Assembly: GCF_016924645.1 (NCBI RefSeq)
Contig: NZ_JAFFJV010000016.1
Location: 124,001 to 188,000, forward strand
Length of the DNA stretch: 64,000 nucleotides
Origin: Rufibacter psychrotolerans
GTDB taxonomy: Bacteria > Bacteroidota > Bacteroidia > Cytophagales > Hymenobacteraceae
Direction of reading: 5' to 3'
Below are positions 22,028-38,351 of the stretch, in pieces. The notes beneath the pieces are model-generated. The model worked only from the letters and a program-made list of their open reading frames with translations. It was not told where the DNA came from and searched no databases. Position numbers and translations under genes: made by a program. Numbering within the stretch: the first letter of the stretch is position 1; every line of letters begins with the position of its first letter.

Positions 22028-23842
22028 TCACTGCACAAGTATCTTTGAAAAGAAGCGGCCACTGTTTGTGTAAACGTGTACATAATAGAGCCCCTTTGAA
22101 CAACCGGTTACATCCAGTTTGTCCAACAAAGACGCGCTCCCACTTTTTTCAAAAACCAACTTACCCACAGCATTTATTAGTTGGACTTTCTTTACGTTGT
22201 AAGTACCACTTGTGTGTATGTTGATAATGCCGGAAGTTGGGTTTGGGAAAACACGTACGCCGGTTGAGCTTTCCTCGTTGACCCCTAAGGGATTTCTCTC
22301 TAAGTAGCCGGTGATATTCTCTGCCACAATACGATCAAACATGATTTTATGGGCGGCATCATTCATGTGCACACCATCGCCACTATCAAATGCGGGCTGC
22401 ATGGTATTGCCTGGGGTTTGAAATCCTGTCCAGAAGTCTACGGTGAAAACTTCTCCAAACTTGCCATAGGTAGCATCAATCATCCCCAGTTGAATCTGGA
22501 CTTTGTCCTGTGAAAAGTTTCTGGGTTGTGGCGTTGTTACCCAAAGGGGTATGTTGGCTTGGGCTGCTTTTTCAATGATTATTTCATAATTTTTCATCTG
22601 ATCCTCAACGGTCCGGCCCGCAGCTGCGTCATTAGAAGGCAAATTGACAATAAGAGCATCTGGGTTGAAGCCAAGGGCTTTTGTGATGTTGTGCTCTGGG
22701 TTATTTTCAGGAAGAATGCTGGCGGTGGTATATCCGCCCACGGCTAAATTAATCACATTGAATTCACTTGGCTGATGGTTTAGATAGTTTCTATACCTCC
22801 ACACCCACGCACTGTCTGGTTTGGAAACTTTTGCTCCTGCCGCCGTTGAGGAGCCCAAAACCACAATGGTAAATTGTTTCGTGTTTCCCTGGAAAATAGA
22901 GAAAGGTCTGGCGCTGACATCATGCAGGCCAGGCTCACCAGCGTCAGCCACCCGGACTAACGCGTGTTCTGCAACAATGGTTGGAAGTGTCCAGGTGTAC
23001 GCTTTGTCAGTGGCGGCAACCGATGCAACAATGGGCAACCAATTAACTCCGTTATCTACAGAATAATCCAGGCGCACAAAGACAACGTTGTCTGCTTTCC
23101 ATTAAATGGAGGTCACCTTACCAGCCTTTAACTGCTCCTCGCCATTGGGTGATTGCAAGGTGATGGCCTTAGGTCCTGGGGCCACTTTGTTGACATAGGC
23201 TATTTTCATGGCGCCTAAGTAGAAAAAGACTGTCGCGTTGTTGTTGTTGTTGTTGTTGTTGTTGCTGCCCTTCTCAACCGTGATTTTTATGGTTCCGTCT
23301 TCCTTAGGAATAACCGGGATAGTTCTAACAACTTTGGAGGTATTTTTTGAGGCATTCAGCTTTACCACCACGGTAGTTTCCCCTTCAACAAGGTATTGGG
23401 TTTCTCTATTGTCGGTTACATTACCGCGGGAGGCAAAAAAGGTGAAAGAGTAAGCTGTCTCTAAGTGCAGGTTGGACAATGAGACTTCTGAAGAAGGCAC
23501 TACAGCGCCATTGAATCTGGTTGTGTTTCCATAAAAACTATCCTTTGAGGCATTGGCAGGAATACCCAACGTATCATCGGCGACAAGGCCGTTAGGGTTG
23601 AAGGTGTTGAATGGTCTGGTGACAGCAATTGAGATACCGGTAGAGAGCTGCTTTGTATTAACCAAGTTTTCTATTGTGCCTGTCTTTGCATTGGTGACGT
23701 TGTTCCAACCGGCAGGAGAAACGGTGGCTGCCGCTCCGAAATCAATGTTAATGGTATCATTCTTCTCCTGGGCAAAGCTCCTATGCATACCAAGGAGCAA
23801 CGAGAGCAATAGAAGCAAATGGAAGAGGGGTTTGTTTTTCAT
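22028..23842 (-). pseudogene. SGNH/GDSL esterase with T9SS tail, interrupted by an in-frame TAA
   Basis: Two open segments join in one frame across a single TAA at 23102-23104 (codons KVTSI-stop-WKADNV). Upstream lie a signal peptide, a beta-sandwich domain with nine consecutive Asn codons, and the start of an Ig-like module. Downstream come the rest of that module (WKADNVVFVRLDYSVDNG), an SGNH hydrolase with all four blocks (VLGSSTAAG Ser, LAVGGYTT Gly, NLPSND Asn, DGVHMND Asp/His) and a type A T9SS tail (FPNPTSGIINI). An intact protein of about 604 residues would be a secreted carbohydrate or lipid esterase. The stop falls where relatives have the Thr of a TITW-like strand. It could be a recent nonsense mutation, a sequencing error or readthrough. 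It is the last gene of the island operon. Confidence 0.8.
23237..23263. repeat. (GTT)9 trinucleotide repeat
   Basis: Nine GTT units encode nine Asn on the minus strand inside the esterase gene. Length changes would keep frame and vary a linker. Confidence 0.9.
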
Positions 23843-23875
23843 AATCTTGCAAATCTGGGTAGAGGGCTCTGGTGG

Positions 23876-23911
23876 GTTTTATGGTTGATTTTCGGAAAAA
23901 AGCCGGAAAAC
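23876..23911 (+). repeat. Dispersed intergenic hairpin motif, copy 8
   Basis: GGTTGATTTTCGGAAAAAAG followed by CCGGAAAAC lies between the hexosaminidase and esterase genes, on the strand opposite to them. Confidence 0.4.
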
Positions 23912-24014
23912 AGGCTGGGTGGAGGCAGTGGCTTTCCAGTCTGCCGAATTGCTCCAGCAGTTAGCTTGTATATTCTACAAAAGGCAATGGAAACGGGGCT
24001 TACCAGAACCCGCC

Positions 24015-25679
24015 TTACGGTGTGCTCTGGTAATACTTAGAATAATTTACCTTTAGTTTATCCAGATGTTGAATATTACTATTCAACCTTTTGAGGAAAT
24101 CCTGGTAATTCTTCTGAGCCAGGGGGGTCCAGGTAATTTCTGCCAAGGCACAGATTCTGGGGAAAGACATAAATTCGGCGTGGTCGCTGGTTGGGATGTA
24201 CTCCGTCCAGAGGTTTGCCTGCGCGCCTAAAACCAGTTTACCTTCTTCGGGCGTTAAACTCTTGGGGACCGGATTATACGAATACACTTTTTCTAACGGC
24301 AGGTAACGGCCAATTGCCAGGGGCTCCCCTTTTCTGCCTGCTTTTGTTTGGTAAGAATCAATGTACAAATGAGAACTTGGCGACATGATTACTTTATGGC
24401 CCTGTTTTGCCGCGGCAATTCCCCCCTTTTCGCCCCGCCATGACATCACCGTGGCGTTTGGTGCTAAACCGCCCTCCAAGATCTCGTCCCACCCAATGAT
24501 AGACCGACCTTTGGAATTAAGGAACTTCTCCATTCTTTGAATGAAGTAGCTCTGCAGCTCATGTTCGTCTTTCAGGCCCTCTCTCTTGATGACCTCCTGC
24601 GCGTAGGCAGATTTCTTCCAGGCGTCTTTGGGCGCTTCATCGCCGCCAATGTGAATGTATTTGCTCGGGAAAATGGCCATTACCTCGGTGAGTACATCCT
24701 CCAGAAATGTGAAAGTGGCTTCATTGGGGCAGTAGATATCCTTGAATATGCCCCAATGGGTGGCTACTTCATAATTTGCATCTGGTGAGCAGCCCAGCTC
24801 TGGGTAAGCGGCCAGCGCGGCCTGCGAATGCCCGGGCATTTCAATCTCAGGAATAATGGTGATAAACCGGTCCTGGGCATATTTGACGAGCTCTTTCAGT
24901 TCTTCCTGGGTATAATACCCCCCGTAGCGTTTCCCATCGTACTGGCGGGGCTTGTCGTTGTTGTGCCCTATGAGGGTTTCTTTCCGCCATGCTCCTACTT
25001 GCTGTAACTTAGGGTACTTCTTTATCTCAATGCGCCACCCCTGGTCTTCGGTTAAATGGAAATGGAAGGTATTGATTTTATAGAAGGCAAGTAAGTCAAT
25101 GTACTTCTTAATGAAGTTTAGGGGCATGAAATGACGGGCTACATCCAGCATGACGCCCCGGTAAGCAAAGCGGGGTTCATCCTGGATATGAACTGCCGGA
25201 ATGGTGAAGCGCTTTAGGTTGGTTGAGGCTTCAATGTCTGCCGGAAAGAGCTGGCGGAGGGATTGCACAGCCAGGAATGCCCCGGCGGGCGTTTTCGCCT
25301 TGATTTGGATTGATTTACTGGAAACCGTCAGCTCATATCCCTCCTGGTGGGTAATGGAACTATCCAGGCTCACGTGAATAGAATTCTTTTTTGCTGCTTT
25401 GTCTGTGTACATCAACGGGTTTCCGGTAGCATTTCGCACCAAATCAGAAAGGAAATCAGTTGCCTTCTTAAGATCAGCAGTAGCACTGGAAAGGTAGATA
25501 GTGGTTTTCTTGTTTAGCGTAAACTCCCCTTCCCTCTCTTCCAGCTTCACCGGTTTAGGGATAATAGCATAGCGGTATTTTTCCTGTGCACTAGCACGAA
25601 GGTGCAGCATTAAGAAGCAACTAAAAGCAATGATTACTTGCACTGCAGTACGTCTGAACATGTTCCTTTCTATCATCAT
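24015..25679 (-). CDS. GH20 beta-N-acetylhexosaminidase
   Basis: This 554-residue exported enzyme has a signal peptide ending around LRASAQ, a GH20b-type N-terminal domain (about 35-165) and a GH20 TIM barrel (from RFAYRGVMLDVARHF on). The catalytic pair is Asp347-Glu348 in HIGGDEAPKDAW. The Asp positions the substrate acetamido group for anchimeric assistance and the Glu is the acid. It removes terminal GlcNAc or GalNAc. Beside phosphodiesterases it may strip hexosamine side groups from a phosphate-linked polymer. MMIERN is the first Met; the second Met is an equally possible start. The gene is 144 bases downstream of a glycerophosphodiesterase gene on the same strand. Confidence 0.93.
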   Translation of the reverse strand: MMIERNMFRRTAVQVIIAFSCFLMLHLRASAQEKYRYAIIPKPVKLEEREGEFTLNKKTTIYLSSATADLKKATDFLSDLVRNATGNPLMYTDKAAKKNSIHVSLDSSITHQEGYELTVSSKSIQIKAKTPAGAFLAVQSLRQLFPADIEASTNLKRFTIPAVHIQDEPRFAYRGVMLDVARHFMPLNFIKKYIDLLAFYKINTFHFHLTEDQGWRIEIKKYPKLQQVGAWRKETLIGHNNDKPRQYDGKRYGGYYTQEELKELVKYAQDRFITIIPEIEMPGHSQAALAAYPELGCSPDANYEVATHWGIFKDIYCPNEATFTFLEDVLTEVMAIFPSKYIHIGGDEAPKDAWKKSAYAQEVIKREGLKDEHELQSYFIQRMEKFLNSKGRSIIGWDEILEGGLAPNATVMSWRGEKGGIAAAKQGHKVIMSPSSHLYIDSYQTKAGRKGEPLAIGRYLPLEKVYSYNPVPKSLTPEEGKLVLGAQANLWTEYIPTSDHAEFMSFPRICALAEITWTPLAQKNYQDFLKRLNSNIQHLDKLKVNYSKYYQSTP

Positions 25680-25720
25680 TTTAAAATTTACTTTTGATCA
25701 ACTCAGGCTTTGTGGCTACC

Positions 25721-25738
25721 GCCCCCGCCTGAGGGGGC
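25721..25738. repeat. GC-rich palindrome
   Basis: GCCCCCGCCTGAGGGGGC lies in AT-rich intergenic DNA upstream of the hexosaminidase. It resembles 28998-29016. Confidence 0.6.
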
Positions 25739-25823
25739 AGAAACTCAGCGTTTGCGTACCGCCTGGGGGAAAGTTGCCTTTTAGGCATGTTTTAAGAAAA
25801 CTAGAGCAAAAACCCAGTAGCAA

Positions 25824-26753
25824 CTAGTGATGCAAACCGCGCTTTCTTAAATAGGCAATCAGTTCTACCGGACGATCTGTTTGTATGATGTTAAAGCCCT
25901 GGTCAAGTAACCAACCCCAACTTTCCTCTACTTTTCCCTCTTCCACTGCCAGGTCATCATGGTGGCTTGCATTTAAACTAGGCCATAACGCATTTACCCA
26001 GACACGGGCACCAGCTTGTTTTAAAGCGCTCAACTCGTTTAAGATGGAGGAGGTATCTGCTCTGAACACAATCTCAAACGCTGCGGGCTTGAGTTCGCGC
26101 TGATACTCTCTGATGATCTGCCGCGCATTCTTGTTCCCCAAGTTCACTACCGGCATGAAGGGCACTTGATACATGATTCTGCCTTTTTCTGCCCGCACTT
26201 TTGCAAAAGTATGGCTGCTTTTGATGATGGTTTGCCCTGTAGTACCCGTTGCCTCTAAGATGGCCTGGGCTTCTTCAAAAAAGTCGTAGCCCTTGTCTAG
26301 ATTCACCATCACCTTGCCTTTCATCAACCGCATGGCTTCTTCCAGGGTAGGAATACGGTGCCCGGTAGCAACGCCGTGACCACCTTTCAGGTAGAGCTGC
26401 CTGAGCTCGGCTAGCGTGTGGTCTTCTACCCTGCCCTGGCCCGTAGTGGTGCGGTCAATGGTTTTATCATGCATCAGCACCAGATGCCCGTCTTTGGTTC
26501 TCTGAATATCTATCTCCACGACATCTACTCCCATGGCCATGGCGTTCTTAATTGCCTGCAGCGAGTTCTCTGGGGCATTGCGCCAATCACCACGGTGCGC
26601 AACCACAAGTACCTGCTTTCCATTAGGTGCATGGTATTCTTTCAAAATCTCGGCCAGCGTATTGCTTTTAGGAGGCACTGCCCCCTGTTTTGAGGCGCTA
26701 CAGCTCAGCACTAGAAACAAGGGTAGCAAGAAGTAAAAGGCTCTGTATTTCAT
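25824..26753 (-). CDS. Glycerophosphodiester phosphodiesterase, lipoprotein (first of two)
   Basis: The protein has 309 residues, with a lipoprotein signal (hydrophobic run ending VLSCSAS). The GDPD core is complete: VVAHRGDWRNAPENSL gives the His-Arg-Glu set, EIDIQRTKDGHLVLMHD the metal-binding Glu/Asp and the second His, and DRTTTGQG follows. It should cut glycerophosphodiesters to sn-glycerol-3-phosphate and an alcohol, using a divalent metal in the periplasm or at the outer membrane. The start is ATG 26753, because it gives the signal peptide. An extended frame to 27023 has no such signal and would overlap the next GDPD gene. Confidence 0.9.
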   Translation of the reverse strand: MKYRAFYFLLPLFLVLSCSASKQGAVPPKSNTLAEILKEYHAPNGKQVLVVAHRGDWRNAPENSLQAIKNAMAMGVDVVEIDIQRTKDGHLVLMHDKTIDRTTTGQGRVEDHTLAELRQLYLKGGHGVATGHRIPTLEEAMRLMKGKVMVNLDKGYDFFEEAQAILEATGTTGQTIIKSSHTFAKVRAEKGRIMYQVPFMPVVNLGNKNARQIIREYQRELKPAAFEIVFRADTSSILNELSALKQAGARVWVNALWPSLNASHHDDLAVEEGKVEESWGWLLDQGFNIIQTDRPVELIAYLRKRGLHH

Positions 26754-26853
26754 GGTCTTTGCCAAGTTAACGATCAGCGACAACAGGTAAGGTGCTGGGA
26801 AAAGCGCTGTGCTTACCGTGAACCCCACCTTTGTAAAGGGCCACATGCCCTTC

Positions 26854-27795
26854 TTACTGCCTGGCTCTACCGAAGAATTTCTTCTTGCTGGATTTTGCAG
26901 GAAACAGGCCCAAAACGGCTTCCGCCACTTTAACCGGGTAATCCGATTCCAGAATATCGGCCCCACCCTGGAATACTCCCCGATACGCCTGGGCTTGCGC
27001 CTCTGTATCTGTAAGTTTATCATAACTGGGTGCCGCCGAAATCATACACATGACCCCACGCTGATGCAGCAGGTCAAAAAGCACTTTATTCTCTGGTTTA
27101 TTCTGAGGGCCTATGTAAGCAATCATGTGTGACCAGGGTATTCCTGCCGCCTCATACTCTTCCAGGGCTTTTCTGGTCTTCACAAAGGCCGAAAACATAA
27201 TGTCTTTGTTTCGGTCATAGTAGAATTTAGCTTGCGCGGCAGTATGCACCGTAACCATGACATGGGCTTCAGCTTTCTGCTTTTGTAGCAGGGCTGCCGT
27301 CATTTCAAGCGGTACATCTTTCTTGTCAAGGTTTAGGATGGTCTTGCCTTTGCTCCATGCAATGGCTTCTTCCAGGGTAGGAATTCTGTGTTCTGTCACA
27401 TTCCCCTTTACATCTTTAAGCCGCAGTGCCTTTAGCTCCTCCCAGGTATGGTCAGATACTTTACCGCTCCCCGTGGTGGTCCGATCAAGGGTAGCGTCGT
27501 GCATCAGCACAATGACACTGTCTTTGGTGAGGCGGGGATCTACCTCAAAAAAGGCTGGTGTGGCGCGAAGCGTCTGCTCCATCGCCGCAATGCTATTTTC
27601 AGGAAATCCTTCCACCACCCCACCCCGATGCCCACTGATAATGGGAATGTCCTGGCCCGTGTACTTGAAAAAGGCTCTTATGTCTTTGGGTTTGCTGACT
27701 TTTATGGTATGTAGGGTTTGCTGGGCGTAAGTGTCGGCCCCCAGGAGAAAACCGGCTAACAAAAGAGCGGCACGAAAAGAGGTAGGTAATTGCAT
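26854..27795 (-). CDS. Glycerophosphodiester phosphodiesterase, exported (second of two)
   Basis: The 313-residue protein has a Sec signal peptide (LLAGFLLGADTYAQQ). The GDPD motif set is intact: ISGHRGGVVEGFPENSI, FFEVDPRLTKDSVIVLMHD and LDRTTTGSG. Sequence similarity to the neighbouring GDPD is mostly limited to the motifs, and there is no lipobox. A long segment with YEAAGIPWSHMIAYIGPQN suggests a different substrate pocket. The pair may act on different head groups or at different places. The gene is 100 bases upstream of the other in one transcription direction. Confidence 0.9.
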   Translation of the reverse strand: MQLPTSFRAALLLAGFLLGADTYAQQTLHTIKVSKPKDIRAFFKYTGQDIPIISGHRGGVVEGFPENSIAAMEQTLRATPAFFEVDPRLTKDSVIVLMHDATLDRTTTGSGKVSDHTWEELKALRLKDVKGNVTEHRIPTLEEAIAWSKGKTILNLDKKDVPLEMTAALLQKQKAEAHVMVTVHTAAQAKFYYDRNKDIMFSAFVKTRKALEEYEAAGIPWSHMIAYIGPQNKPENKVLFDLLHQRGVMCMISAAPSYDKLTDTEAQAQAYRGVFQGGADILESDYPVKVAEAVLGLFPAKSSKKKFFGRARQ

Positions 27796-27883
27796 AAGAG
27801 GTTATCAATCAAGTACTGGAATGATTCTTAAAGGAAGTTCATTGAAGGACAGGCAGCTTAACTTTTGCCCATGGCCATGTAAT

Positions 27884-28849
27884 TCACTTAAGCTCTACCC
27901 TGGCCAAAACCGGCAAATGGTCAGAGGGGTAAATCGTGTCTTTCGCTTCCTTGAGCACCTTATATGCTAACACGCGAAAGAGATTGTTAGTGAAGACATA
28001 ATCTATGCGCCTATTCAATGGCCTGTTGTAGTCCATGGCATTGTAAGTTCCTTCCGGACCTTCCGGGGCAGCCATACTCACGTCTTTACTGTCCACCATA
28101 AATGATTTTAAAACCGTGATAGGCGCTGTAGCAGGGGTAGTATTCATATCACCCGCCAGAATAACTGGTTTTCCTTCTGCTATCTTCTGTATCCTCTCTT
28201 TTAAGAGTTCGGCAGATTTCAAGCGTGCTTCGCTGCCAACATGATCAAGATGCGTATTAAACACAAAGAATTCTTGCCCGGTATTCTTGTCGTGAAACTG
28301 GGCCCAGTTACAGATTCTAAGCACGGCCGCATCCCAACTTTTAGACGGCACCTCGGGGGTTTCAGACATCCAGAAATGTCCCCATTTCCTCACTGTGAAC
28401 CGGGCCTTGTTATAATAGATTGCTACAAACTCACCACTTCCAGATGCTTTGCCCGTGTTTCTGGCCACGCCTACTTTGTAAAAACCGGTTGCCCGGCTGA
28501 TATCTTCACCCTGGTTCTGGTAATCTTCCTGCGCACAAAGAATATCTACCTTGTTTATTTTAATCTGGGAGATGACTCGGTCTTTCCGTTCTGCCCAGGA
28601 ATACCCTCTTGGCCGGCCGGAGTCATCTTGCAGTACATTATAGCTCATGACCTGAACAGCTGAACTCTTGGATGGGCCCTCCCCGGAATCAACAATAGGG
28701 GAAGGATCATGCTCTGAGCTGTTTTTGCAGGCATGCAGTGCCGTTGCCAAGCTTAGCAACATCAACAGCAGCAATCTTTGCAGAGGTAGAATACATCTAC
28801 GGCTTTGCGTTTTAGTAAAGGGGAAGTAACAGATCTTGTAATTATTCAC
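27884..28849 (-). CDS. EEP-family phosphodiesterase/phosphatase lipoprotein, active site intact
   Basis: The 321-residue protein has a signal ending ALHAC41, a lipobox. It shows all active-site elements of the endonuclease/exonuclease/phosphatase fold: Asn71 in MSYNVLQ, Glu108 in CAQEDY, His200 in FNTHLDHVG, Asp234 and Asn236 in LAGDMNTTP, RIDYVF, and the Asp-His of PSDHLPVL. Members include sphingomyelinases, inositol-phosphate phosphatases and DNases. A membrane-anchored form inside an uptake locus is more likely to cleave phosphodiesters or phosphomonoesters of a nutrient than to repair DNA. The long Arg-rich n-region is unusual. ATG at codon 30 would be the alternative start. Confidence 0.88.
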   Translation of the reverse strand: MNNYKICYFPFTKTQSRRCILPLQRLLLLMLLSLATALHACKNSSEHDPSPIVDSGEGPSKSSAVQVMSYNVLQDDSGRPRGYSWAERKDRVISQIKINKVDILCAQEDYQNQGEDISRATGFYKVGVARNTGKASGSGEFVAIYYNKARFTVRKWGHFWMSETPEVPSKSWDAAVLRICNWAQFHDKNTGQEFFVFNTHLDHVGSEARLKSAELLKERIQKIAEGKPVILAGDMNTTPATAPITVLKSFMVDSKDVSMAAPEGPEGTYNAMDYNRPLNRRIDYVFTNNLFRVLAYKVLKEAKDTIYPSDHLPVLARVELK

Positions 28850-28905
28850 TGAAAGCAGTAATTAAGAGAAAGGACCAGACGGTACATCTTGCCCAGGGAG
28901 AAACG

Positions 28906-29049: not shown

Positions 29050-30438
29050 TTACACCTTCACCTCCATAAACTTGTTCCGCTTACGACTTTCTTCTGCCAT
29101 AAAGCCCATGATGTGGCTTTCAATAGATTCATCAATAGTAGAGGTCAACAAGGCAGGATTCTGCTGAGACACTGCCTGCACAAAATCACGCACTAACAGC
29201 CAATCTCCCCCTCCGTGGCCGCTGTTCTTGTAGCCTTCCACATCTTCGGCCTTGGGTTTGAGTTTAAGTTCTTTCCCTGTTCTGAAATCTTTCACCACCA
29301 ACTCATTCATGTCGCCTACCATATCTCCCATGGCCCCCATTATACGGGTTCTTCTTCCGTGGTAAGAAGTAAAGGCCTCCATGGAGAAACTGGCGGTTAC
29401 ATTGTCTTCAAACTGAATGGTGGTTACATAATGGTCTGGCTGATCATTCTCCATTCTGTAAACACAACGCCCGTAATTCGTGGTTTTTAGGCGCTCCATG
29501 ATCACCTCGCTGAGCTTGCTTTTATCAGCTGGCAGATCAAGCACAAACGTTCTTTTTCTATTGTCATGATAATGCCTGATTGCCGAATAAGGACATTCGC
29601 GTTCCACCGCACACCCGTCTGTACAACGAGCGGTACTTCCTGCCGGGGCATTCTCTTTACGGAACCATTTCAGGTCGCCCATGGCCGCAATGCGCTCACT
29701 TTTCTTGTTTATGACCCATTTCACAATGTCTAAATCGTGGCAAGACTTTGCCAAAATGATTGGGCTTGTTTCCTTGGAGTTATGCCAGTTACCACGCACG
29801 TAAGAGTGTGCCATGTGTAAATGCTCAATAGGCTCAAAGTGTTGCACGCTTATCACCTCGCCAATTGCTCCTGCGGCTATCAGCTCCCGCATTTTTACAA
29901 AGTAGGGCGCATAACGCAGCACATGGCACACAGCCACAATGCGGCCAGTTTTCTTTGCCAGTTTGTAGATATCGCGGCACTCCTTTTCTGTGGGTGCAAT
30001 TGGCTTTTCCAACAATACATCATACCCCATGGCCAATGCTTTCATGCAAGGCGCATAGTGCAGGTTATCTGGCGTGGAGATGATAACAGCATCGGCGAAC
30101 TTGGGCCGTTTGAACACATCTTCCCAGGTTTCAAATCTGTTCTCGTCTGCTATGTTGTGCTGTTTGGCATAGCGGTCGTTCCGGAATGGAAGAGGCTCTG
30201 CTACTCCAACAATATCTAATTGATCGGGAAATTTAGAGGCAAAGTTTCCGTAAACAGTTCCCCTGCTCCCGGCACCAAGTGTAATGGCAGTCACAGGTTT
30301 AGCAAGCGGCTTGTGTAAGGGATTAACCGGGAGCGTGTAAGCGTAGGTGTTATCCGCTAATTTAGCTAGTGCCTCCGTGCTGATAACGGCGGCACCTATA
30401 CTCAGCCCCAATGATTTAAGAAGTTTACGGCGGTTCAT
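29050..30438 (-). CDS. Gfo/Idh/MocA-family oxidoreductase, exported
   Basis: The 462-residue protein has a start resembling a Tat signal, MNRRKLLKSLGLS, followed by a hydrophobic stretch. The Rossmann NAD(P) fold begins at about residue 50 (ITLGAGSRGTVYGNFASKF). LLEKPIAPTEKEC supplies the EKP motif near residue 145. A Cys cluster (CTDGCAVERECPYS) near residue 275 is notable and may bind a metal. Family members oxidise inositols and sugars, and GH109 glycosidases share this exported layout, so a glycosidase-like NAD mechanism is possible. The gene lies in the phosphodiesterase/hexosaminidase operon. The substrate is not determined. Confidence 0.85.
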   Translation of the reverse strand: MNRRKLLKSLGLSIGAAVISTEALAKLADNTYAYTLPVNPLHKPLAKPVTAITLGAGSRGTVYGNFASKFPDQLDIVGVAEPLPFRNDRYAKQHNIADENRFETWEDVFKRPKFADAVIISTPDNLHYAPCMKALAMGYDVLLEKPIAPTEKECRDIYKLAKKTGRIVAVCHVLRYAPYFVKMRELIAAGAIGEVISVQHFEPIEHLHMAHSYVRGNWHNSKETSPIILAKSCHDLDIVKWVINKKSERIAAMGDLKWFRKENAPAGSTARCTDGCAVERECPYSAIRHYHDNRKRTFVLDLPADKSKLSEVIMERLKTTNYGRCVYRMENDQPDHYVTTIQFEDNVTASFSMEAFTSYHGRRTRIMGAMGDMVGDMNELVVKDFRTGKELKLKPKAEDVEGYKNSGHGGGDWLLVRDFVQAVSQQNPALLTSTIDESIESHIMGFMAEESRKRNKFMEVKV

Positions 30439-30647: not shown

Positions 30648-30659
30648 TTGCCTGTGACA

Positions 30660-31745
30660 TTATTTCCGGGTGATTCTAATCTCAGAAATTACCGGCTTTT
30701 TATTGTTCAGCACGTCCTCCTCACTCCCTACTGTATAACTTACCACTTCCATCTTTACCCCTAACCCTTCTCTGAACATGATGTGATCTACCACAAAGGC
30801 TGGGGCATTGGCAGGGAATGTTAACGTACATCCCAGGCAACCAGGAGTAAACTGGCTGTAGAGGGTTTGCATGTGGGGAGCGGTTTGTGAATCAAAATAG
30901 AAATTACCTCCCATGATGACAGGTAACTGAGTAGTACCTAAGATTTCCAGCAATCTCTGGGCTTGTAAGGGTTGGTCCCTGTTTCGGTTAGTAGCAGAGC
31001 CATCTTCCATCTGTACGGCTACAAACATTAAATCAAACCCTTCTACCACCTCAACGGTAGCGTACCCAAGCGGACGAGTTGTGGCTCCAGGCAAAAGAGT
31101 AGGCCCAAACTTCTCCTTGATAGGAAAACGAGACAAAAGTGAAGGACCATATTCCCCTCCTCTGTATGGCCACCCAGATGCAAAAAGATAGTTCATGCCC
31201 AGTTTATCTGCAATTACCTTCCCCTGGTCAATTGCTGGATCCGTTCGGGTATTGTAACTATCAATTTCCCGCAAGGCCACCAAATCTGGATTATACTTCC
31301 TGATCAATGCTTCAACCTCCTCTAGATTGGCCTTGCTGTTGGAGATTCCAAAAGACATTACTTTCAACGTGACATCAACGGGAACAGGCTTCTTGAGTAC
31401 GGTAAAGCTTGCAACAGTAGTGCCGTCTCCGTTGGTGAGGGCAATGGGTTGCGCTCCTACCGCTGCATTGACAGGAACAGTTACTGTAATCTTGGAGGCT
31501 ATAGAATCTAAAGTATATTCAGTGGCTTCTGTACTACCAATCATTACAGAGATAACATCTTTGAAGTTAAAACCAGTAATAGTCACTGTACTCCCCTGTA
31601 CGCTTTCTGCGGGAGCAACTGAATAGATAACTGGTTTATAGATCTGGGGTGGTTCATAGTCTGCCCACGGCCCTGCACTGTCACATGAGGACACTAAAAG
31701 CAGAAGGAAGGCAAAAATTGTATTGATACTCAACAGCTTTTTCAT
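30660..31745 (-). CDS. Surface lipoprotein: IPT/TIG domain plus degenerate EEP fold
   Basis: This 361-residue protein has a lipobox LVSSC21. An IPT/TIG Ig-like domain (about 38-117) precedes a domain that clearly follows the EEP phosphodiesterase fold: KYNPDLVALREID with the usual Glu160, YGPSLLSRFPI and PVIMGGNF. Most catalytic residues are replaced. The Asn of TYN is absent in MSFGIS (129-134), the THL His is VQM (244-246), the GDFN Asp and Asn are GGNF (279-282), and the terminal SDH is NKK (348-350). I infer a non-catalytic binding protein at the SusE/F position, 25 bases after susD. Compare the intact EEP enzyme encoded at 27884-28849. Confidence 0.85.
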   Translation of the reverse strand: MKKLLSINTIFAFLLLLVSSCDSAGPWADYEPPQIYKPVIYSVAPAESVQGSTVTITGFNFKDVISVMIGSTEATEYTLDSIASKITVTVPVNAAVGAQPIALTNGDGTTVASFTVLKKPVPVDVTLKVMSFGISNSKANLEEVEALIRKYNPDLVALREIDSYNTRTDPAIDQGKVIADKLGMNYLFASGWPYRGGEYGPSLLSRFPIKEKFGPTLLPGATTRPLGYATVEVVEGFDLMFVAVQMEDGSATNRNRDQPLQAQRLLEILGTTQLPVIMGGNFYFDSQTAPHMQTLYSQFTPGCLGCTLTFPANAPAFVVDHIMFREGLGVKMEVVSYTVGSEEDVLNNKKPVISEIRITRK

Positions 31746-31770
31746 ACAAACAATTGAACAGTAATGGGGA

Positions 31771-33357
31771 TTAATAATTGGGATTTTGCTCCATGTTGGG
31801 ATTTGCCATTATCTCATTCTGAGGAATAGGCCAATAATAGTCCCTGTTGGCCCTGGCAGTTCTCTGCTCTACTAGTATGGCCTGTTCGGTTTCTGGGTGA
31901 ACTGCACCGTATACAGGTCCATTCATCACCGCTTCAAAAATCCCCCACCTACGAATGTCAAAATAGCGCACTGCTTCAAAGGCTAGCTCAACTTGCCGCT
32001 CCCTTCTAACAAGTTCCCGCATTTTTTCCTGTGAGTTGTAGGCAGCTACATCCACATCTGGCATGCCAGCCCTGTTACGAATGGCATTCAGGTATTTCAA
32101 AACATCAGGATGATTCCATTCCCCCTCTTCTACCAGTGCCTCCACATAATTCAACAGAACCTCTGCGTATCTGATAATCATGTAGTCCAGAGTCCGGGAA
32201 CCATTCCTGTCTTTCGGGTCCAGGTATTTGTTTATCCAAAAGCCTGTTGCTGTAGAATATTGATCGCCAATTCTGTCTGCGTTTTTAGGGTCAGAATTAA
32301 ACGGATCCAAAACATTTGTATCATATTCTTGCCCTGGAAGTAGGACTGACGCGGCTAGCCGGGGGTCTCTGTTGTTTTTATAAGTAGGATCACGCTGATA
32401 AATGGCAGCAGAGTCAGGGCCTAATTCCCAGATGGTTTTGCCTTGCTTGGTCTCAAAACTATTAACAATGGCGGCGGTGGGCGACACAACGGTTTCCCCG
32501 CCTATCCCTTTCGGGGCGAAAGTGTTCCAAGCGCCTGAAGAGCCAGACTCCCGGTAGAAAATCCGTTCTTTGTTGAGCTCACCCGTGTAGGTGAAAAGAT
32601 CAGCATAGCTGTTTTTTTTGTCTACACTCTCATACAACTCATATAGGTTAGAGTCAATTATCTTCCTGGCCGCCATTCTGGCATCATCATACTTATGATG
32701 GAACAGAGCCAATCTGCTGATCAACGCCCAACAAATGCCAGAAGTAATTCTGGTCCTGTCATTAAAGCTATACTCGGCAGGCAGATTGTTGGCGGCAGCA
32801 GTTAGTTCTGACACCACAAACTCGTATACTTCCTCTTTCGTGTTTCTTGGCAGTGCGCTCTCATTAGGAGTAACGGCCGAGGTTACAATAGGAACCCCAC
32901 CGAAAAGCATCAGCAACTCCAGATGGTAATAGGCCCTAAGCGCCCTTGCTTCGTATTTATAGCGGGCTTTCAGAGATTCGTCCATGTAGACCTTGTCTAC
33001 ATGGTCAAGAAAGCGGGCTGCTCTCCTGATTGTTTTATAATTGTCTTGCCATATGTGCAACGACTTGTCAAAACTAGGACCTTGCAAGCCTTTTACATAC
33101 GCTTCATAGTCACCCCGGGTGCTTTGCCTGGCCACCGCATCATCGCTCAAGGCAGATAAGAACTGCACTTGCCTGCCTGTTGCACCATGCGGAATTCCTA
33201 CATATACACTTGCAAGGGCGGCCGTTGCATCTGCTTCGGTGTTCCACCATACTTCATCTGTCACGCTGGTAGGGTGGTCGTGGGTCAGGAAATCTTCACA
33301 ACCAGAGAGTGACAGCAACAGCGCAGCACCCATTATATAGTAATACTTCTTATTCAT
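31771..33357 (-). CDS. SusD/RagB-family surface binding lipoprotein
   Basis: The 528-residue protein has a signal ending LSLSGC and a GCEDFLTHDHPTSVTDEVWW start typical of SusD. TPR-like helices follow (ARALRAYYHLELLMLFGGVP), then the C-terminal RRERQVELAFEAVRYFDIRRW and the final WPIPQNEIMANPNMEQNPNY. It should form the lid of the adjacent SusC and select the island's substrate at the surface. The gap to susC is 10 bases. Confidence 0.96.
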   Translation of the reverse strand: MNKKYYYIMGAALLLSLSGCEDFLTHDHPTSVTDEVWWNTEADATAALASVYVGIPHGATGRQVQFLSALSDDAVARQSTRGDYEAYVKGLQGPSFDKSLHIWQDNYKTIRRAARFLDHVDKVYMDESLKARYKYEARALRAYYHLELLMLFGGVPIVTSAVTPNESALPRNTKEEVYEFVVSELTAAANNLPAEYSFNDRTRITSGICWALISRLALFHHKYDDARMAARKIIDSNLYELYESVDKKNSYADLFTYTGELNKERIFYRESGSSGAWNTFAPKGIGGETVVSPTAAIVNSFETKQGKTIWELGPDSAAIYQRDPTYKNNRDPRLAASVLLPGQEYDTNVLDPFNSDPKNADRIGDQYSTATGFWINKYLDPKDRNGSRTLDYMIIRYAEVLLNYVEALVEEGEWNHPDVLKYLNAIRNRAGMPDVDVAAYNSQEKMRELVRRERQVELAFEAVRYFDIRRWGIFEAVMNGPVYGAVHPETEQAILVEQRTARANRDYYWPIPQNEIMANPNMEQNPNY

Positions 33358-33367
33358 TTTTGTGAGG

Positions 33368-36300
33368 TTAAAATCTTACACTCAGTCCTACTGTGTAGAC
33401 TTCCATAATGCTGTATGTCCATTGATTACCACGGCTCTCAGGGTCTGTAAGCTTCAGGGAAGTGAAGGTTAAAGGGTTCTGCGCATTGACATAGAGGCGC
33501 GCATTGCTCACTCCCAGGCGTGCTAAAGAGGCGGGCTGCAGATTGTAGCCTAACTGTACATACTTGACCCGCAGGTAAGCCCCGTTCTGAAACCAAAAGT
33601 CTGATGATTCTCTATTGTTGATGGGAGAGGTACTGATTCTAGGAAACCTGGCATTGGTGCGTTGAGGGGTCCAGTAATTGCCGGCGTAATAAGTGGTAGG
33701 TACGCCACCGTCTCTGCTCATATCCAAAGGCAGGGCGAACATTCCTGTTAAGGGCACATCGCTCTTACCTGTTCCCTGGAGGAGGAATTCAAAATCAAAG
33801 TTTCTATAGGCAATCTGAAAATTAGAGAAGTAATTTAATCTTGGCACAGGATTACCAATGCGGGTCTGATCATTGGTGGCGTCAATCACGCCATCACCGT
33901 TGAGGTCCAGGTATTTGATATCACCAGGTGCCGCATCAGGCCGTAAGGGCACCAGGGGGTTTCCCTCAGCATCAAAATCACTTTCTTGTAAAAGACCGTT
34001 GGTTCTATATCCGTAGATGCTTCCAATAGCGCCACCCACCTCATTAATGGTAGTAGAAGTGGTACCCACAAAGTTGGGTACAAGGTAGGTTATCTCATTG
34101 CTGTTGTAGGTTACACCCGGCCTCACAGAAAAGCTGAGATGATTACTGATTTTATCATTATAGTTCAATGAGGCTTCCCATCCTCTGTTCCTTACTTCGC
34201 CCGCATTGATTGGCACCTCCCCTTGAAAACCGCCCACATCTGGTAACAGCGGGCTAAGGATGATATCCTTGGTTCGTTTGTCATAGACATCAACAATAAG
34301 TTCTACCTTATTATCATGGAATAAACCTATATCCAAGCCCACATTGAACATGTTCACCGTTTCCCAGGTGATGCCAGGGTTGCCATAGGTGCTCTCCAGA
34401 CCGTTGGAGGGACTAATGATTGTCTGGTACCGGTATAAGCCAATGTTCTCGTTGCCTAACTGGCCATATGAAGCCCTAAGCTTCAGGTTATTGATCACAT
34501 CTACCCCCTGCAGAAACGATTCATTGTGTATGTTCCAACCAACTGCCGCAGAAGGGAAGTAACCAAATTTGTGGCCAGGGCCGAATTTAGAGGAGCCATC
34601 CATCCGGATAGTTCCTTCCAACAGATACCTGTCTTTGAAGGAGTAGTTTAGCTTGGCATAGGCAGATACCATTGAGTTGATATTCCAGTCGCCTCTGTTG
34701 TTCTCCTCTTGAGAGTATCCGGCCATGGCAAAGATGTAATGGTCATCCAAATCAAGGGTGTAATCTGCATTGGCGGCCATGTAGTAATAGGTGGTCCTAT
34801 CCATGGAAGCTTCTCTCTGCGTATCCCAGGTCCTCAGCAATTGGCCCGTGTAATAATCAAAGAAGTTTGTATTCTCGCGGGTAGTTCTGTTGGCGTCGCT
34901 GTTCAGCCTGAAACTGAATTGTCCGTTCAGGTTAAAGTTTGGAAACACTTCCCACTTGGGCTGCAGGTTAAGGCTAGTCTGGCTGTCTTCCGCTTTGATG
35001 GCACCGCCTCTTTCAGCAAAGGCCAGTGGGTTTACGATGTCAACATAATGTCCATAGTGGCTGACCCCGTTCACGGCCGGATACCTGGGCAGAATGGTTG
35101 GGGGTACTCTGTAGATATCTTCCAGCAGCCTGCTTCCCCCGGCCCTGGTAGCTTTGTTGGGCTGACTTGTGTTTCTTCTGATAGCCAGTAGATCAAGGTT
35201 AACCAAAAACTTATCACTGAGGGAGAAAGAAGAATTAGCCCGGATGTTGAATCTGCTCATGCTCGTATTGGGGAGCATTCCCTCCTGATCCATGTAATTC
35301 GCCGTTACGGCAAACCGGGCCAGGCTATTTCCCCCACTCAGTGAAAGCGAATGGCTGGTGATGGGTGCTGCCCGGTTTATCATCAGGTTTCGCCAGTTTG
35401 TATTTGGGTACTTCACCGGGTCTGCCCCAGATCTGGTGAGTTGGATATCTTCTTCTGTAAAATTGGGAGACTGCCCTGCGTTTAACTGCCCCTCATTGTA
35501 CATGCTCATATAAGTAGGAGCATCAACTACTTCAGGCAAATTGGTAGGGCTCTGCACTCCATAAAACCCATCATACCCTACCGTAACCTTGCCAGGCACC
35601 CCTCTTTTGGTGGTAACCAGAATTACGCCGTTTGCGGCCCTGGCCCCATAGATGGCTGCCGCAGCCGCGTCTTTTAGCACCGTCACGCTCTCTACAGTGA
35701 CCGGATCTATGTGGTTCATGTCCATAGGTACCCCATCTACCAGCACCAATGGATTGGAATTTCCTAATGTGCTTACCCCTCTTATCTTGATAGCGGCGGC
35801 ATCGCCCCCCGGCAAACCTGAGCTTTGCGTTACCTGCAGGCCTGTCACCCCCCCTTGCAGGGATTGCGACAGGGTAGTTATGGGCTTGCCCACAATGTTT
35901 GAGGCAACATCTAAGGTGGCAATTGAACTGGCAATGTGTCTCTTCTTTTGCTCTGAAAGACCTACCACCACTACTTCATTCAGCGCGGCAACATCTTCCC
36001 TTAAGGAAAGAACAAAGTTGCTTTCATTCTTTTGCACCGTATATTCCTCGCCCACAAAGCTTACCATGGAAAAGGTGAGTACTTCCCCTTTCCTGACTTT
36101 GATTGAAAAGTTTCCATCTATGTCTGTCACGGTGCCTCTATCTGTACCTTTAACAATGACAGAAACACCTGGCAGGGCACCTGGCGGCTCATTAGTGTCA
36201 AACACCCGCCCCTTCACGGTGAGGGGTTCAGAGCTTTGTTCTACCTGTGCCTTGGGTTTCGGAGATTTGCGTACCACAATCGTATTAGGCAATACCGTAA

Positions 36301-36616
36301 ATTCCAGTCCCTCCTTATCCCGCAGAAACCTTAGAACCTCACTTAGGGGTGCCCCTTTGAAGTCTATTATTGAAATTTTAGAACCCTCAAGGGAGGCTTT
36401 GTCGTAAGTAAAAGAAATAGCGGTTTGTCTGTTGAGCTCTTTGATGACCGTCTCAGCCGAAGTGTTTCTAAGTGTGATGCTTACTTTTTTCTGCAGGTCA
36501 TGTGCCTGTGCGTGTAGTACCGCTACTGAGCCCCAAAGCACAAGCACGAACAGGAGGATTTTAAATCCCGCCTTCTGTAAGACAGGATATTGAAAAGAAT
36601 TGGTTACTTTTATCAT
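33368..36616 (-). CDS. SusC/RagA TonB-linked transporter with STN domain
   Basis: The protein has 1082 residues. Unlike the first SusC it carries an STN (secretin/TonB short N-terminal) domain at about 40-115 (VSITLRNTSAETVIKELNRQ to NTIVVRKS). That domain lets the transporter signal to a FecR-type anti-sigma factor when it is loaded. A carboxypeptidase-regulatory domain (about 130-215), the TonB box LNEVVVVGL, the plug (KIRGVSTLGNSNPLVLVDG) and the barrel follow. The two genes upstream encode exactly that FecR and an ECF sigma factor, so transport and gene control are coupled. It is co-oriented with susD. Confidence 0.96.
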   Translation of the reverse strand: MIKVTNSFQYPVLQKAGFKILLFVLVLWGSVAVLHAQAHDLQKKVSITLRNTSAETVIKELNRQTAISFTYDKASLEGSKISIIDFKGAPLSEVLRFLRDKEGLEFTVLPNTIVVRKSPKPKAQVEQSSEPLTVKGRVFDTNEPPGALPGVSVIVKGTDRGTVTDIDGNFSIKVRKGEVLTFSMVSFVGEEYTVQKNESNFVLSLREDVAALNEVVVVGLSEQKKRHIASSIATLDVASNIVGKPITTLSQSLQGGVTGLQVTQSSGLPGGDAAAIKIRGVSTLGNSNPLVLVDGVPMDMNHIDPVTVESVTVLKDAAAAAIYGARAANGVILVTTKRGVPGKVTVGYDGFYGVQSPTNLPEVVDAPTYMSMYNEGQLNAGQSPNFTEEDIQLTRSGADPVKYPNTNWRNLMINRAAPITSHSLSLSGGNSLARFAVTANYMDQEGMLPNTSMSRFNIRANSSFSLSDKFLVNLDLLAIRRNTSQPNKATRAGGSRLLEDIYRVPPTILPRYPAVNGVSHYGHYVDIVNPLAFAERGGAIKAEDSQTSLNLQPKWEVFPNFNLNGQFSFRLNSDANRTTRENTNFFDYYTGQLLRTWDTQREASMDRTTYYYMAANADYTLDLDDHYIFAMAGYSQEENNRGDWNINSMVSAYAKLNYSFKDRYLLEGTIRMDGSSKFGPGHKFGYFPSAAVGWNIHNESFLQGVDVINNLKLRASYGQLGNENIGLYRYQTIISPSNGLESTYGNPGITWETVNMFNVGLDIGLFHDNKVELIVDVYDKRTKDIILSPLLPDVGGFQGEVPINAGEVRNRGWEASLNYNDKISNHLSFSVRPGVTYNSNEITYLVPNFVGTTSTTINEVGGAIGSIYGYRTNGLLQESDFDAEGNPLVPLRPDAAPGDIKYLDLNGDGVIDATNDQTRIGNPVPRLNYFSNFQIAYRNFDFEFLLQGTGKSDVPLTGMFALPLDMSRDGGVPTTYYAGNYWTPQRTNARFPRISTSPINNRESSDFWFQNGAYLRVKYVQLGYNLQPASLARLGVSNARLYVNAQNPLTFTSLKLTDPESRGNQWTYSIMEVYTVGLSVRF

Positions 36617-36680
36617 TACAGTAAAATGAAGGATAAGCGATAAAACCTGGCAGGGTCATATCTTTTTTGAATTCATGGAG

Positions 36681-36707
36681 AGGCATCGGTGCAACGATGC
36701 CTTTTTT
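36681..36707 (+). terminator. Hairpin between fecR and susC, T tract on the plus strand
   Basis: AGGCATCG and CGATGCCT flank a 6-nt loop, followed on the plus strand by TTTTTTT. It would stop antisense transcription rather than the fecR-to-susC message. Confidence 0.5.
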
Positions 36708-36709
36708 TA

Positions 36710-37666
36710 TTAGAGATTAGTTATTTCCAGTGCTCCCCCTTTCCTGACTAGTTTCAAATTGTGAAGTAGCAATATGGCCTCCAACGCTTGCTCGGCTTCA
36801 GCACTTTTGTACTCCCCTGTTACCTTTTTTCCTTTCAGGGAAAGAGCGGGGTCTATGTGTATAGTGAGGTGATGGAGGTGCTGCACCCGCTTTATGGCAT
36901 CCAGCAGAGGGATGTCATTGAAGATGATTTTATTCTCCAGCCAGGCACCTATGTGCTGCCTGGCTACAGGCTGAATGGTTCCCAGCTGCCCGCTTCGGTC
37001 GTAGACCAACATTTGGCCGGGGTCCAGAGCATAATGCCGTTTGTCGGCGCCCTCTACCAGTACTTTGCCCCGGAGCAGCGCTACACGTACCTGTTCTTCT
37101 CCTTCGTAAGCCTCCACGTTGAAGGCGGTGCCCAGTACATGGGTGCTGGTGTGATGGGTTTCTACGATGAATGGCCGCTGGCTGTCTTTCTTCACGTCGA
37201 AGAAGGCCTCACCGCTAAGCCTTACTTTTCGGTTTGTTTTATTGTAGGTTTCATCAAACTCCAGCGTAGCGTACTTGTTGAGTGTCACCTGGGTGCCATC
37301 TGGCAGCGCCACCTTTCTCAGGTCGCTTCCATCTGATGCTACCACCGTAACAGCTGGGGTATTGAAGTATCTATCCCCTAGAAACAGCCCTAGCAACAGC
37401 AAGATAGAGGCTGCCACAGCCCTGAGCCATGTCGGGAAGGGATTTAACTTTCTAACTGGTGCTTCCGCAGGGCGGATACGGGCATGAATGTTTCGCTGTA
37501 TCTCTTGCCGAACCTTTTCCTCTTCTGCGAAGTCCCGGAAAACAACCTGATCGCTCACATCAAGGTGGCGAACCCACTTTTGGAGAAGAATGGCTTCTTC
37601 CTCACTGGCCAGTCCTTTGAGGTATTGGTCCAGCAGATGCTCTAGTTGTTCTTTTTCAGGTTGCAT
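36710..37666 (-). CDS. FecR-family anti-sigma factor
   Basis: The protein has 318 residues. A cytoplasmic N-terminus with helices (LEHLLDQYLKGLASEEEAILL) should hold the sigma factor. One membrane helix sits at about 82-98. The periplasmic FecR domain (VALPDGTQVTLNKYATLEF, VRLSGEAFFDVKKD, VLGTAFNVEAY) and a C-terminal DUF4974-like domain (DIPLLDAIKRVQHLHHL) receive the signal from the STN domain of SusC. It lies 58 bases downstream of the ECF sigma gene on the same strand. This is a classic FecIR-type pair. Confidence 0.94.
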   Translation of the reverse strand: MQPEKEQLEHLLDQYLKGLASEEEAILLQKWVRHLDVSDQVVFRDFAEEEKVRQEIQRNIHARIRPAEAPVRKLNPFPTWLRAVAASILLLLGLFLGDRYFNTPAVTVVASDGSDLRKVALPDGTQVTLNKYATLEFDETYNKTNRKVRLSGEAFFDVKKDSQRPFIVETHHTSTHVLGTAFNVEAYEGEEQVRVALLRGKVLVEGADKRHYALDPGQMLVYDRSGQLGTIQPVARQHIGAWLENKIIFNDIPLLDAIKRVQHLHHLTIHIDPALSLKGKKVTGEYKSAEAEQALEAILLLHNLKLVRKGGALEITNL

Positions 37667-37724
37667 ACACTAGGTAGTGCCATGCCACGCTAAAAAGTAC
37701 TATGCCTTTTGTGTTACCTTTATG

Positions 37725-38351
37725 TTACTTATTGAACACCAGAATCAGCAGCATACTCACGGGTAGTTCATATGCATGTTCCTGCACGGCCTTGCGCAGC
37801 CGTTGCATGGCTGTACCGGTCTGGTTCTTAACCGTTTGCGGAGATATATTCAGAGCTACAGCTACTTCGGCCACAGATCGTTCGCCAGACCTCATCATCT
37901 GGAAAACGTTCCGCATCTTCTCGGGCATCTCCTGGATTGCCTGATTGATAATCACTTGCAACTGTTCAAACTCTACCTCAAACTCGTGCTGTGATACCGA
38001 ACCAGGAGCATACTCTTGCTGGGTGCTTTGTTGCGTAAACTCCTGGAAAATACGGATATGTTTGTCCTGTACCCCTTTGCTACGAAAGTGGTGAAAGGCT
38101 TTGTAGTAAAGGCTTGAAATAAGGTAGGTACTTAAGGAAGAAGTGATCAAAACCTTGTCACGCTTGTTCCAGAACTCCACAAACAGGTCCTGCACCAGGT
38201 CCATGGCATCCTCTTTACACCCTACCTTTTTTATGGCCGCTGCATACAGCTTTTTCCAATAGCGGTTATAAAGTTCATCAAAGGCCTCGTCATCTCCCCG
38301 GCGGATTTGCTGAAGAAGAGTCTGTTCGTCTATTTGCGCTAAACGTCCCAT
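37725..38351 (-). CDS. ECF sigma-70 factor (FecI-like)
   Basis: The protein has 208 residues. Region 2 lies at about 20-85 (DEAFDELYNRYWKKLY, then EDAMDLVQDLFVEFWNKRD). Region 4 lies at about 140-195 (MPEKMRNVFQMMRSGERSVAEVAVALNISPQTVKN). I use ATG 38351 (MGRLAQIDEQ), which gives the standard ECF length. A longer frame to 38498 adds 49 non-conserved residues. It should drive the SusC/D operon once released from FecR. It is the first gene of the island's minus-strand series and the likely master regulator. Confidence 0.93.
   Translation of the reverse strand: MGRLAQIDEQTLLQQIRRGDDEAFDELYNRYWKKLYAAAIKKVGCKEDAMDLVQDLFVEFWNKRDKVLITSSLSTYLISSLYYKAFHHFRSKGVQDKHIRIFQEFTQQSTQQEYAPGSVSQHEFEVEFEQLQVIINQAIQEMPEKMRNVFQMMRSGERSVAEVAVALNISPQTVKNQTGTAMQRLRKAVQEHAYELPVSMLLILVFNK

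Follow-up and report, generated by a model that had tools for sequence, protein, structure and literature searches.

The closest described systems to the locus considered here are the phosphate utilisation systems (PUS) of Flavobacterium johnsoniae, in which six PusCD complexes all stand beside phosphomonoesterases (PMEs) or phosphodiesterases (PDEs), and which were recognised by their induction under low phosphate, according to the accessible sections of that article (PMC8115612). We analysed a 64,000-nucleotide stretch of Rufibacter psychrotolerans (contig NZ_JAFFJV010000016.1, positions 124,001 to 188,000; hereafter the window), in which eleven co-directional genes occupy positions 22028–38351 of the minus strand, as determined by open reading frame (ORF) calls and Pfam/NCBIfam profile searches. 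Judged from its genes alone, this locus has the content of a PUS, a SusCD pair with phosphomono- or phosphodiesterases, and also that of a polysaccharide utilisation locus (PUL), a SusCD pair (TIGR04056 and SusD_RagB above cut-off) with a carbohydrate-active enzyme (GH20). A preliminary description of the same DNA considered that such a locus belongs to no standard class that can be named. The class does have a name, since SusCD loci with phosphodiesterases were already published as PUS, as the accessible part of the same article states (PMC8115612). We consider that the eleven genes probably constitute a PUS/PUL-type locus for a phosphodiester-linked polymer or glycoconjugate that bears N-acetylhexosamine (HexNAc).

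All eleven genes named in the preliminary description were recovered on one strand of this segment. They are given below in order of transcription, where ECF stands for extracytoplasmic function, EEP for endonuclease/exonuclease/phosphatase, GFO for the Gfo/Idh/MocA oxidoreductase, and GDPD for glycerophosphodiester phosphodiesterase.

37725..38351, minus strand: ECF-type sigma factor, 208 aa (Sigma70_r2 6e-9, r4_2 3e-9, ECF models above cut-off)
36710..37666, minus strand: FecR-type anti-sigma factor, 318 aa (FecR 4e-19)
33368..36616, minus strand: SusC, 1082 aa (TIGR04056 866 bits; TonB_dep_Rec, Plug and CarbopepD_reg_2 above cut-off)
31771..33357, minus strand: SusD lipoprotein, 528 aa (SusD_RagB 5e-57; lipobox LSGC)
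30660..31745, minus strand: lipoprotein with a TIG domain and a degenerate EEP domain, the pseudo-EEP (TIG 4e-8, Exo_endo_phos 9e-11; lipobox VSSC)
29050..30438, minus strand: GFO, 462 aa (GFO_IDH_MocA 4e-18; twin-arginine-like leader, by eye)
27884..28849, minus strand: EEP hydrolase with the full catalytic set EHDNDDH (Exo_endo_phos 1e-18)
26854..27795, minus strand: GDPDa (GDPD 4e-23; catalytic motifs; signal peptide by eye)
25824..26753, minus strand: GDPDb, a lipoprotein with DUF4996 (GDPD 4e-29, DUF4996 2e-34; catalytic motifs; lipobox VLSC)
24015..25679, minus strand: GH20 hexosaminidase (Glyco_hydro_20 6e-125; HIGGDE motif)
22028..23842, minus strand: SGNH esterase gene, interrupted (Lipase_GDSL_2 1e-16 and Por_Secre_tail for type IX sorting, both on the C-terminal half)

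The intergenic gap is 10 bp between SusC and SusD, 25 bp between SusD and the TIG-EEP gene, and 58–221 bp elsewhere. The start of GDPDb was placed by eye at 26753 (MKYRAFYF) instead of the mechanical ORF start at 27023. Some assignments of the preliminary description required adjustment. Its STN-SusC is a SusC, but the STN match stayed under the Pfam cut-off (22.7 vs. 28.4 bits). Its SGNH esterase gene carries Lipase_GDSL_2 as described but contains an in-frame TAA at 23102–23104, whose two sides (23102–23842 and 22028–23077) share one frame; the N-terminal half gave no Pfam match. Upstream of this TAA, an (AAC)n run at approximately 23237–23262 encodes about nine asparagines.

The earlier proposal that the target contains phosphodiesters plus hexosamine is supported by the genomic context of the relatives of GFO and GH20. 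GFO is present as 17 copies in 16 of 204 genomes of the family, the window included, and the other 16 copies are 77–89% identical to the window's. Fifteen of these 16 lie inside SusCD loci, nine of them with an EEP (within ~13 kb) and six with GDPD, phospholipase D (PLD) and metallophosphatase in a glp-type locus, while the remaining copy (G179) stands among sulfatase matches. The sampling comprised 395 genomes from the class and 16 from the genus, the other family genomes being reached only through GFO; in locus L258, this gene was found by genome search and tblastn, a longer antisense ORF covering it in the ORF calls.

The glp-type loci, designated A (n = 9, from two of the family's genera), consist of the six with GFO and three without it that were found via GlpT. 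All nine match glpT, SusC, SusD, DUF5689, PLD, metallophosphatase, GDPD and SGNH, and they usually also hold GlpK, GlpF and GlpD; the Pfam names of PLD, metallophosphatase, GDPD, SGNH, DUF5689 and GH36 were each assigned on one representative. GH20 was found in three A loci, GH89 in four and GH36 in four, with GH20 or GH89 in six of the nine. The three A loci that carry both GFO and GH20 are those closest in content to the window, the former being 84–85% and the latter 70–73% identical to the window's, and the window GDPDs and SGNH belong to the same families as the A-locus genes without being close to them. In a representative A set, GlpT (TIGR00712, 740 bits with a cut-off of 633), GlpK (TIGR01311, 741 with 590) and MIP (186 with 171) exceeded their cut-offs, GlpD stayed below (295 vs. 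360), and a divergent regulator lay just above the AgaR cut-off. The second type, designated B (n = 9), has the order SusC-SusD-EEP(1–3)-GFO and gave no glp match; one or two GH89 enzymes were found in five of the nine, ROK proteins in seven, and a glucosamine-6-phosphate isomerase/PIG-L protein in that of G183. Pfam confirmed GH89 for three proteins, two from a single B locus and one from an A locus. GH20 or GH89 is present in 11 of the 18 family loci of both types (three of the 18 being without GFO), and GlpT is present in nine, which fits glycerol-phosphate chemistry. Among the 395 class-sampled genomes, GlpT was detected in ten; four of these, from one other family, hold SusCD and GDPD beside it, in five, the stretch read contains a GDPDb-like match but no SusCD, and one has neither.

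What the related loci have in common appears to be a phosphodiester together with the compound on which GFO acts; hexosaminidases are recurrent. Because the GFO of sister species (and GH20 in three cases) sits with GlpT, PLD, metallophosphatase, GDPD and SGNH, we favour a glycosylated glycerol-phosphate polymer, or a related glycerophospho-glycan, as the most likely substrate type. Glycerol-phosphate is implied for the A loci, and would apply to the window only by extension; glycosylated glycerol teichoic acids, a candidate of the preliminary description, but also other glycerophospho-glycans, would fit the locus content. Two further observations were made on the B loci. Glycerate kinase and a GntP permease are present in three of them (G143, L312/L313; G137, L308/L309; G140, L314/L315), a hint of glycerate as a possible product. 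Downstream of GFO in L304 (G165) and L306 (G190), a GMC-type oxidoreductase and a gluconate-dehydrogenase-subunit-3-like protein were recognised by eye, with a weak 3-keto-hydrolase match.

GH20 itself is found in all 16 genomes of the genus, and the six copies nearest to that of the window (60–73% identity) all belong to SusCD loci that also contain EEP or GDPD: three of type A, two SusCD-EEP loci (L253 and L255), and a locus on contig 21 of the same genome with the content SusCD-SusCD-GH20-Gfo-GH20-SGNH-SGNH-GDPD. This genome holds a further SusCD-EEP-metallophosphatase locus on contig 13. GDPDa and GDPDb share 32% identity over 256 aa, and both showed a GDPD domain above the Pfam cut-off and the HR..EN..E.D..HD motifs, which we take to be the catalytic signature of this family. 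The solved structure nearest to GDPDb is 3i10 (E 3.5e-82). The EEP at 27884–28849 was found by alignment to hold the entire E-H-D-N-D-D-H set, in agreement with its earlier description as an intact hydrolase. In L253 (G140) and L255 (G133), the genes SusCD-degenerate EEP-EEP lie opposite a divergently oriented series, which includes GH20, GH109, MFS, CBM9, an APH-type kinase and a nucleotidyltransferase in L253. This series is reminiscent of the gene set for N-acetylgalactosamine (GalNAc) in the B. theta PUL BT4240-50, as the accessible part of its description gives them (PMC11992087).

The lipoprotein encoded directly after SusD (30660–31745) had been described as TIG/EEP-like. The TIG domain and the EEP fold were verified, but most catalytic residues are lost, the seven aligned positions reading EQNYDNK vs. 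EHDNDDH in the intact EEP. These positions were chosen from the EEP motifs of the intact window protein, which we presume to be those of the family. The full set is common to 46 of 69 aligned EEPs, for which proteins of 200 aa or shorter were dropped (in L147, two fragments of a disrupted EEP next to SusD) and a weaker EEP match (L194) stayed outside the residue table. Conservation was examined by a SusD-alignment scan of a genome collection (one genome per species, 84,980 species), which gave 173 relatives, of which the best 80 loci were kept for all counts out of 80. Eighteen of the 80 likewise have a degenerate EEP next to SusD, 16 of them with another EEP behind it that retains all seven residues. 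The arrangement SusCD-pseudoEEP-EEP is present in the cultured species Sphingobacterium gobiense and S. allocomposti. In a tree of the 69 EEPs from which the seven catalytic columns were excluded, 22 of 23 degenerate proteins formed one group (100/98), consisting of the window pseudo-EEP and 21 other SusD-adjacent degenerate EEPs, two sister genomes included; the degenerate L158_8 fell outside, and the L140_5 group and L253_5/L255_6 were flagged by the program as long branches that meet. In these two sister genomes, a longer degenerate EEP lipoprotein follows SusD, which in L253 consists by Pfam of PF08522 (presumably the former DUF1735) and EEP. Not every locus of this style has a dead EEP, because the single SusD-adjacent EEPs of L127, L128, L130, L196 and the own-genome locus L087 are intact, as are all 19 EEPs in the nine SusCD-EEP-GFO loci of sister genomes.

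In the AlphaFold model of the pseudo-EEP, the mean pLDDT (predicted local distance difference test) was at least 80 in every ten-residue block from residue 121 on, and the TIG part was mostly below 60. The model matched the folds of 4ruw (Z 25.8), 3mpr (25.5), a neutral sphingomyelinase (24.9) and 4c1r (24.5). The shared EEP fold, the loss of catalytic residues, and the fixed place after SusD together suggest that the pseudo-EEP may be a phosphodiester-binding surface protein. The same protein and GFO bear on another candidate target, a glycosyl-phosphoinositol such as a glycosylphosphatidylinositol anchor or the head group of inositol phosphoryl-ceramide, on which EEP and GDPD would cut the phosphodiester, GH20 or GH89 would remove HexNAc, and the Gfo enzyme would oxidise inositol. 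The pseudo-EEP exceeds the cut-off of the PGAP2IP nuclease-like Pfam model (30.5 vs. 27 bits) and resembles neutral sphingomyelinase among many EEPs, GFO stands with EEP and no glp match in nine loci, and the Gfo/Idh/MocA family includes inositol dehydrogenases. However, the match of GFO to inositol 2-dehydrogenase IolG (TIGR04380) was partial, with 75 bits vs. a cut-off of 355 (4e-21), its best NCBIfam match was UDP-N-acetylglucosamine 3-dehydrogenase, likewise far below cut-off, and the glp genes beside GFO in six loci would be left unexplained. We hence regard a glycosyl-phosphoinositol target as rather unlikely. GFO also gave partial matches only to glycoside 3-dehydrogenase models and no Glyco_hydro_109_C match at E 0.01, a threshold that a sister-genome protein passes at 1.6e-41. 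A structure model of GFO was set aside (mean pLDDT 43).

The SusCD front of the window is conserved among its SusD relatives, which show up to 70% identity in the 80 loci. Using tblastn with the window proteins, homologues of the sigma factor were detected in 57 of the 80 loci, FecR in 61, SusC in 79, TIG-EEP in 24, EEP in 10, GFO in 11 (six of them full-length, 75–81% identical and downstream of SusD) and the N-terminal half of SGNH in two. A wider enzyme panel identified any EEP in 24 loci, metallophosphatase in four, PLD in one, GH89 in one and 3-keto-hydrolase in 15, with EEP, metallophosphatase or PLD present in 26. Among the 20 top-ranked SusD-relative loci, 14 hold an EEP or a GFO orthologue. 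The best-ranked relative (L122, Cesiribacteraceae YIM B00369, 70%) comprises SusCD, two pseudo-EEPs, PLD, an EEP 60% identical to that of the window, and metallophosphatase, so that all enzymes identified there belong to phosphoesterase families. In four Niastella/Longitalea loci (L123–L126), a GFO orthologue directly follows SusCD. Seven other loci (L139, L141, L145, L146, L158, L163 and L165; Chitinophaga and one Sphingobacterium) match a different Gfo together with a 3-keto-disaccharide hydrolase, a 3-keto-glycoside theme that was checked by Pfam on L139 and, for the hydrolase only, on L158.

Several observations weigh against a phosphodiester- and HexNAc-directed locus in the window. Homologues of GDPDa, GDPDb, GH20 and the C-terminal half of SGNH were each found by tblastn in none of the 80 SusD-related loci; the condition named in the preliminary description as refuting its proposal, conserved neighbourhoods that lack the GDPD and EEP genes, thus applies by half, the GDPDs being absent and EEPs recurring (24 of 80), and this speaks against a fixed unit of eleven genes. 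The panel gave no match to EEP, PLD or metallophosphatase in 54 of the 80, six Chitinophaga relatives hold Gfo and 3-keto-hydrolase with no phosphoesterase match, and several Dyadobacter SusCDs (56% identity) have no adjoining window-enzyme match in a match search, for which the neighbours were not Pfam-scanned. SusC and SusD of the B loci are only 28–35% identical to those of the window, and since their EEPs are also all intact, they are not the same locus as the window's. GDPDb orthologues (69–70%) occur in two of 15 other genomes of the genus, both outside a SusCD locus, one being a few kb from a SusCD-EEP pair with an unrelated gene between. Furthermore, the esterase gene is interrupted, and no GlpT was detected in the window's genome at E 1e-80. 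Had only the SusD route been followed, the GDPD/GH20 part of the locus would have been discounted because of its absence from all 80 loci; the other locus types were revealed by the GH20 and GFO routes. A last point concerns the intact EEP, whose nearest solved chains are 3mpr and 4c1r, the latter titled mannosyl-6-phosphatase (E 2.9e-44), so that it may cut monoesters. If so, the target could be phosphomannan or another glycan decorated with phosphomonoesters, with EEP acting as a sugar phosphatase and the GDPDs as passengers. We think this quite improbable, because it leaves two GDPDs unaccounted for, no alpha-mannosidase was found by Pfam among the eleven genes, and L122 pairs its EEP with PLD and metallophosphatase.

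The eleven genes are a compositionally distinct block. Their G+C content at third codon positions (GC3) is 0.44–0.56 vs. 0.71–0.81 in six flanking genes and 0.60 in a porin gene, and a tRNA-Arg gene (21292–21367) lies beside the block. This may be read as a mosaic gathered by transfer, in which a general SusCD stands beside unrelated enzymes that share no single substrate. The 88–221 bp gaps from the lipoprotein gene onwards, the low GC3 beside tRNA-Arg, the interrupted esterase, the lack of GDPD, GH20 and the SGNH C-terminal half around related SusCDs and the separate location of the GDPDb orthologues agree with such an origin, but enzymes of these families are repeatedly found near other SusCDs, both in sister genomes and in the own genome, and we judge it unlikely.

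On the left, the block is flanked by a SusCD locus with GH16 and GH3 (6733–17343; glycosidases by Pfam, SusCD by eye), which we suppose may serve a beta-glucan such as laminarin. Genes for Porin_O_P, Pst and PhoU lie 4 kb from the locus on its right side (porin, PhoU and parts of Pst by Pfam, exact Pst names by eye). This vicinity raises the alternative that the locus, like a classical PUS, simply scavenges phosphate, either from glycerophosphodiesters derived from phospholipids or from nucleic acids, with GH20 and SGNH being incidental; the Flavobacterium PUS loci also hold PDEs with ECF or FecR genes, according to the accessible sections (PMC8115612). However, in the relative G138, porin-PstSCAB-PhoU is present at 59–87% identity and the 20 kb upstream are without any locus gene, so the pst adjacency may be coincidence; relatives G145 and G132 hold the porin without pst genes on the stretch read. 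Searches of the window and the genome with a TTAACA pattern established no Pho box, and hexosaminidases are present in most of the 18 related family loci. Phosphate scavenging of this kind appears fairly unlikely. The pattern was taken from three TTAACA-like repeats with 11-bp spacing (TTAACA-N5-TTAACA-N5-GTAACA, 42370–42397) located before porin-pst and followed by a TACTTTTG element. With up to two mismatches, it gave nine matches in the window vs. 4.2 expected (4 of 100 shuffles reach nine), some of them near FecR and the sigma factor; with up to one mismatch, it gave 28 in the genome vs. nine for the reversed control. Six of the 28 were perfect, and behind the other five no recognisable phosphate gene was seen by eye in 3-kb stretches. 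The pattern is enriched without a tie to phosphate genes, and the repeats were set aside as no more than a possible Bacteroidota Pho box.

Returning to the phosphodiester- and HexNAc-directed reading, the window appears to join the SusCD-pseudoEEP front of its SusD relatives to GFO, EEP, GDPDs, GH20 and SGNH, and to hold elements of both the A and B types. On the cell surface, the TIG pseudo-EEP would bind a phosphodiester uncut and pass it to SusD. The TonB-powered SusC would then import the fragments, and, as family knowledge suggests, SusC, FecR and the ECF sigma factor would induce the operon on substrate arrival. EEP and the two GDPDs, whose catalytic residues are present, are predicted from their families to cleave phosphodiester or phosphomonoester links. 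GH20 would take off terminal beta-HexNAc, SGNH would take off ester groups (its gene being interrupted here), and GFO may act on the freed sugar or polyol. More broadly, we tentatively propose, as a possibility that is itself doubtful, that Bacteroidota carry an undescribed family of loci whose targets are glycosylated polymers of glycerol-phosphate, for example the teichoic acids of Gram-positive bacteria. This family would be composed of GlpT/K/F/D, SusCD, PLD, metallophosphatase, GDPD, GH89/GH20/GH36 and SGNH, with a parallel branch that uses a clade of dead-EEP lipoproteins as phosphodiester binders beside SusD; in the window, this front would be combined with glycerol-phosphate-type enzymes.

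Both organic phosphorus and carbon can be obtained from teichoic acids and other phospho-glycans. If our proposal is true, the PUL idea would be extended from glycans to glycosylated phosphodiester polymers, and it could be tested on the genes named here in genera of which strains have been isolated, Sphingobacterium and Pedobacter among them. In PULs, some surface binding proteins have the fold of a glycosidase that has lost its activity; the pseudo-EEP clade would be a counterpart with a phosphoesterase fold. No published locus of this kind was found, including under a teichoic acid, SusD and glycerophospho theme, in a literature search that omits most subscription journals, and phosphoesterase terms were not found in the accessible part of PMC11216935. 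The class, PUS, is hence already known, and its glycosylated-phosphodiester variant is not found in the literature searched.

Compared with solved proteins, the window GDPDb matches 3i10 (titled putative GDPD) over 270 residues. The Bacteroides chains 3mpr and 4c1r (Bt3783, mannosyl-6-phosphatase) are the nearest solved relatives of the intact EEP and have the same fold as the pseudo-EEP, which, unlike them, is without most catalytic residues. PUSI and PUSII of F. johnsoniae resemble the window in that a SusCD-like pair is accompanied by predicted phosphodiesterases or a phosphatase and by the gene of an ECF sigma factor (PUSI) or FecR (PUSII); in the accessible sections they are reported with two PDEs or PhoA1, to which the window adds a hexosaminidase, a GDPD pair, Gfo and the pseudo-EEP (PMC8115612). 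The window further shares with Bacteroidota PULs the order ECF sigma-FecR-SusC-SusD-lipoprotein and exported hydrolases. Unlike in PULs, its SusD-adjacent lipoprotein is a dead phosphodiesterase, and three of its five hydrolases are phosphoesterases.

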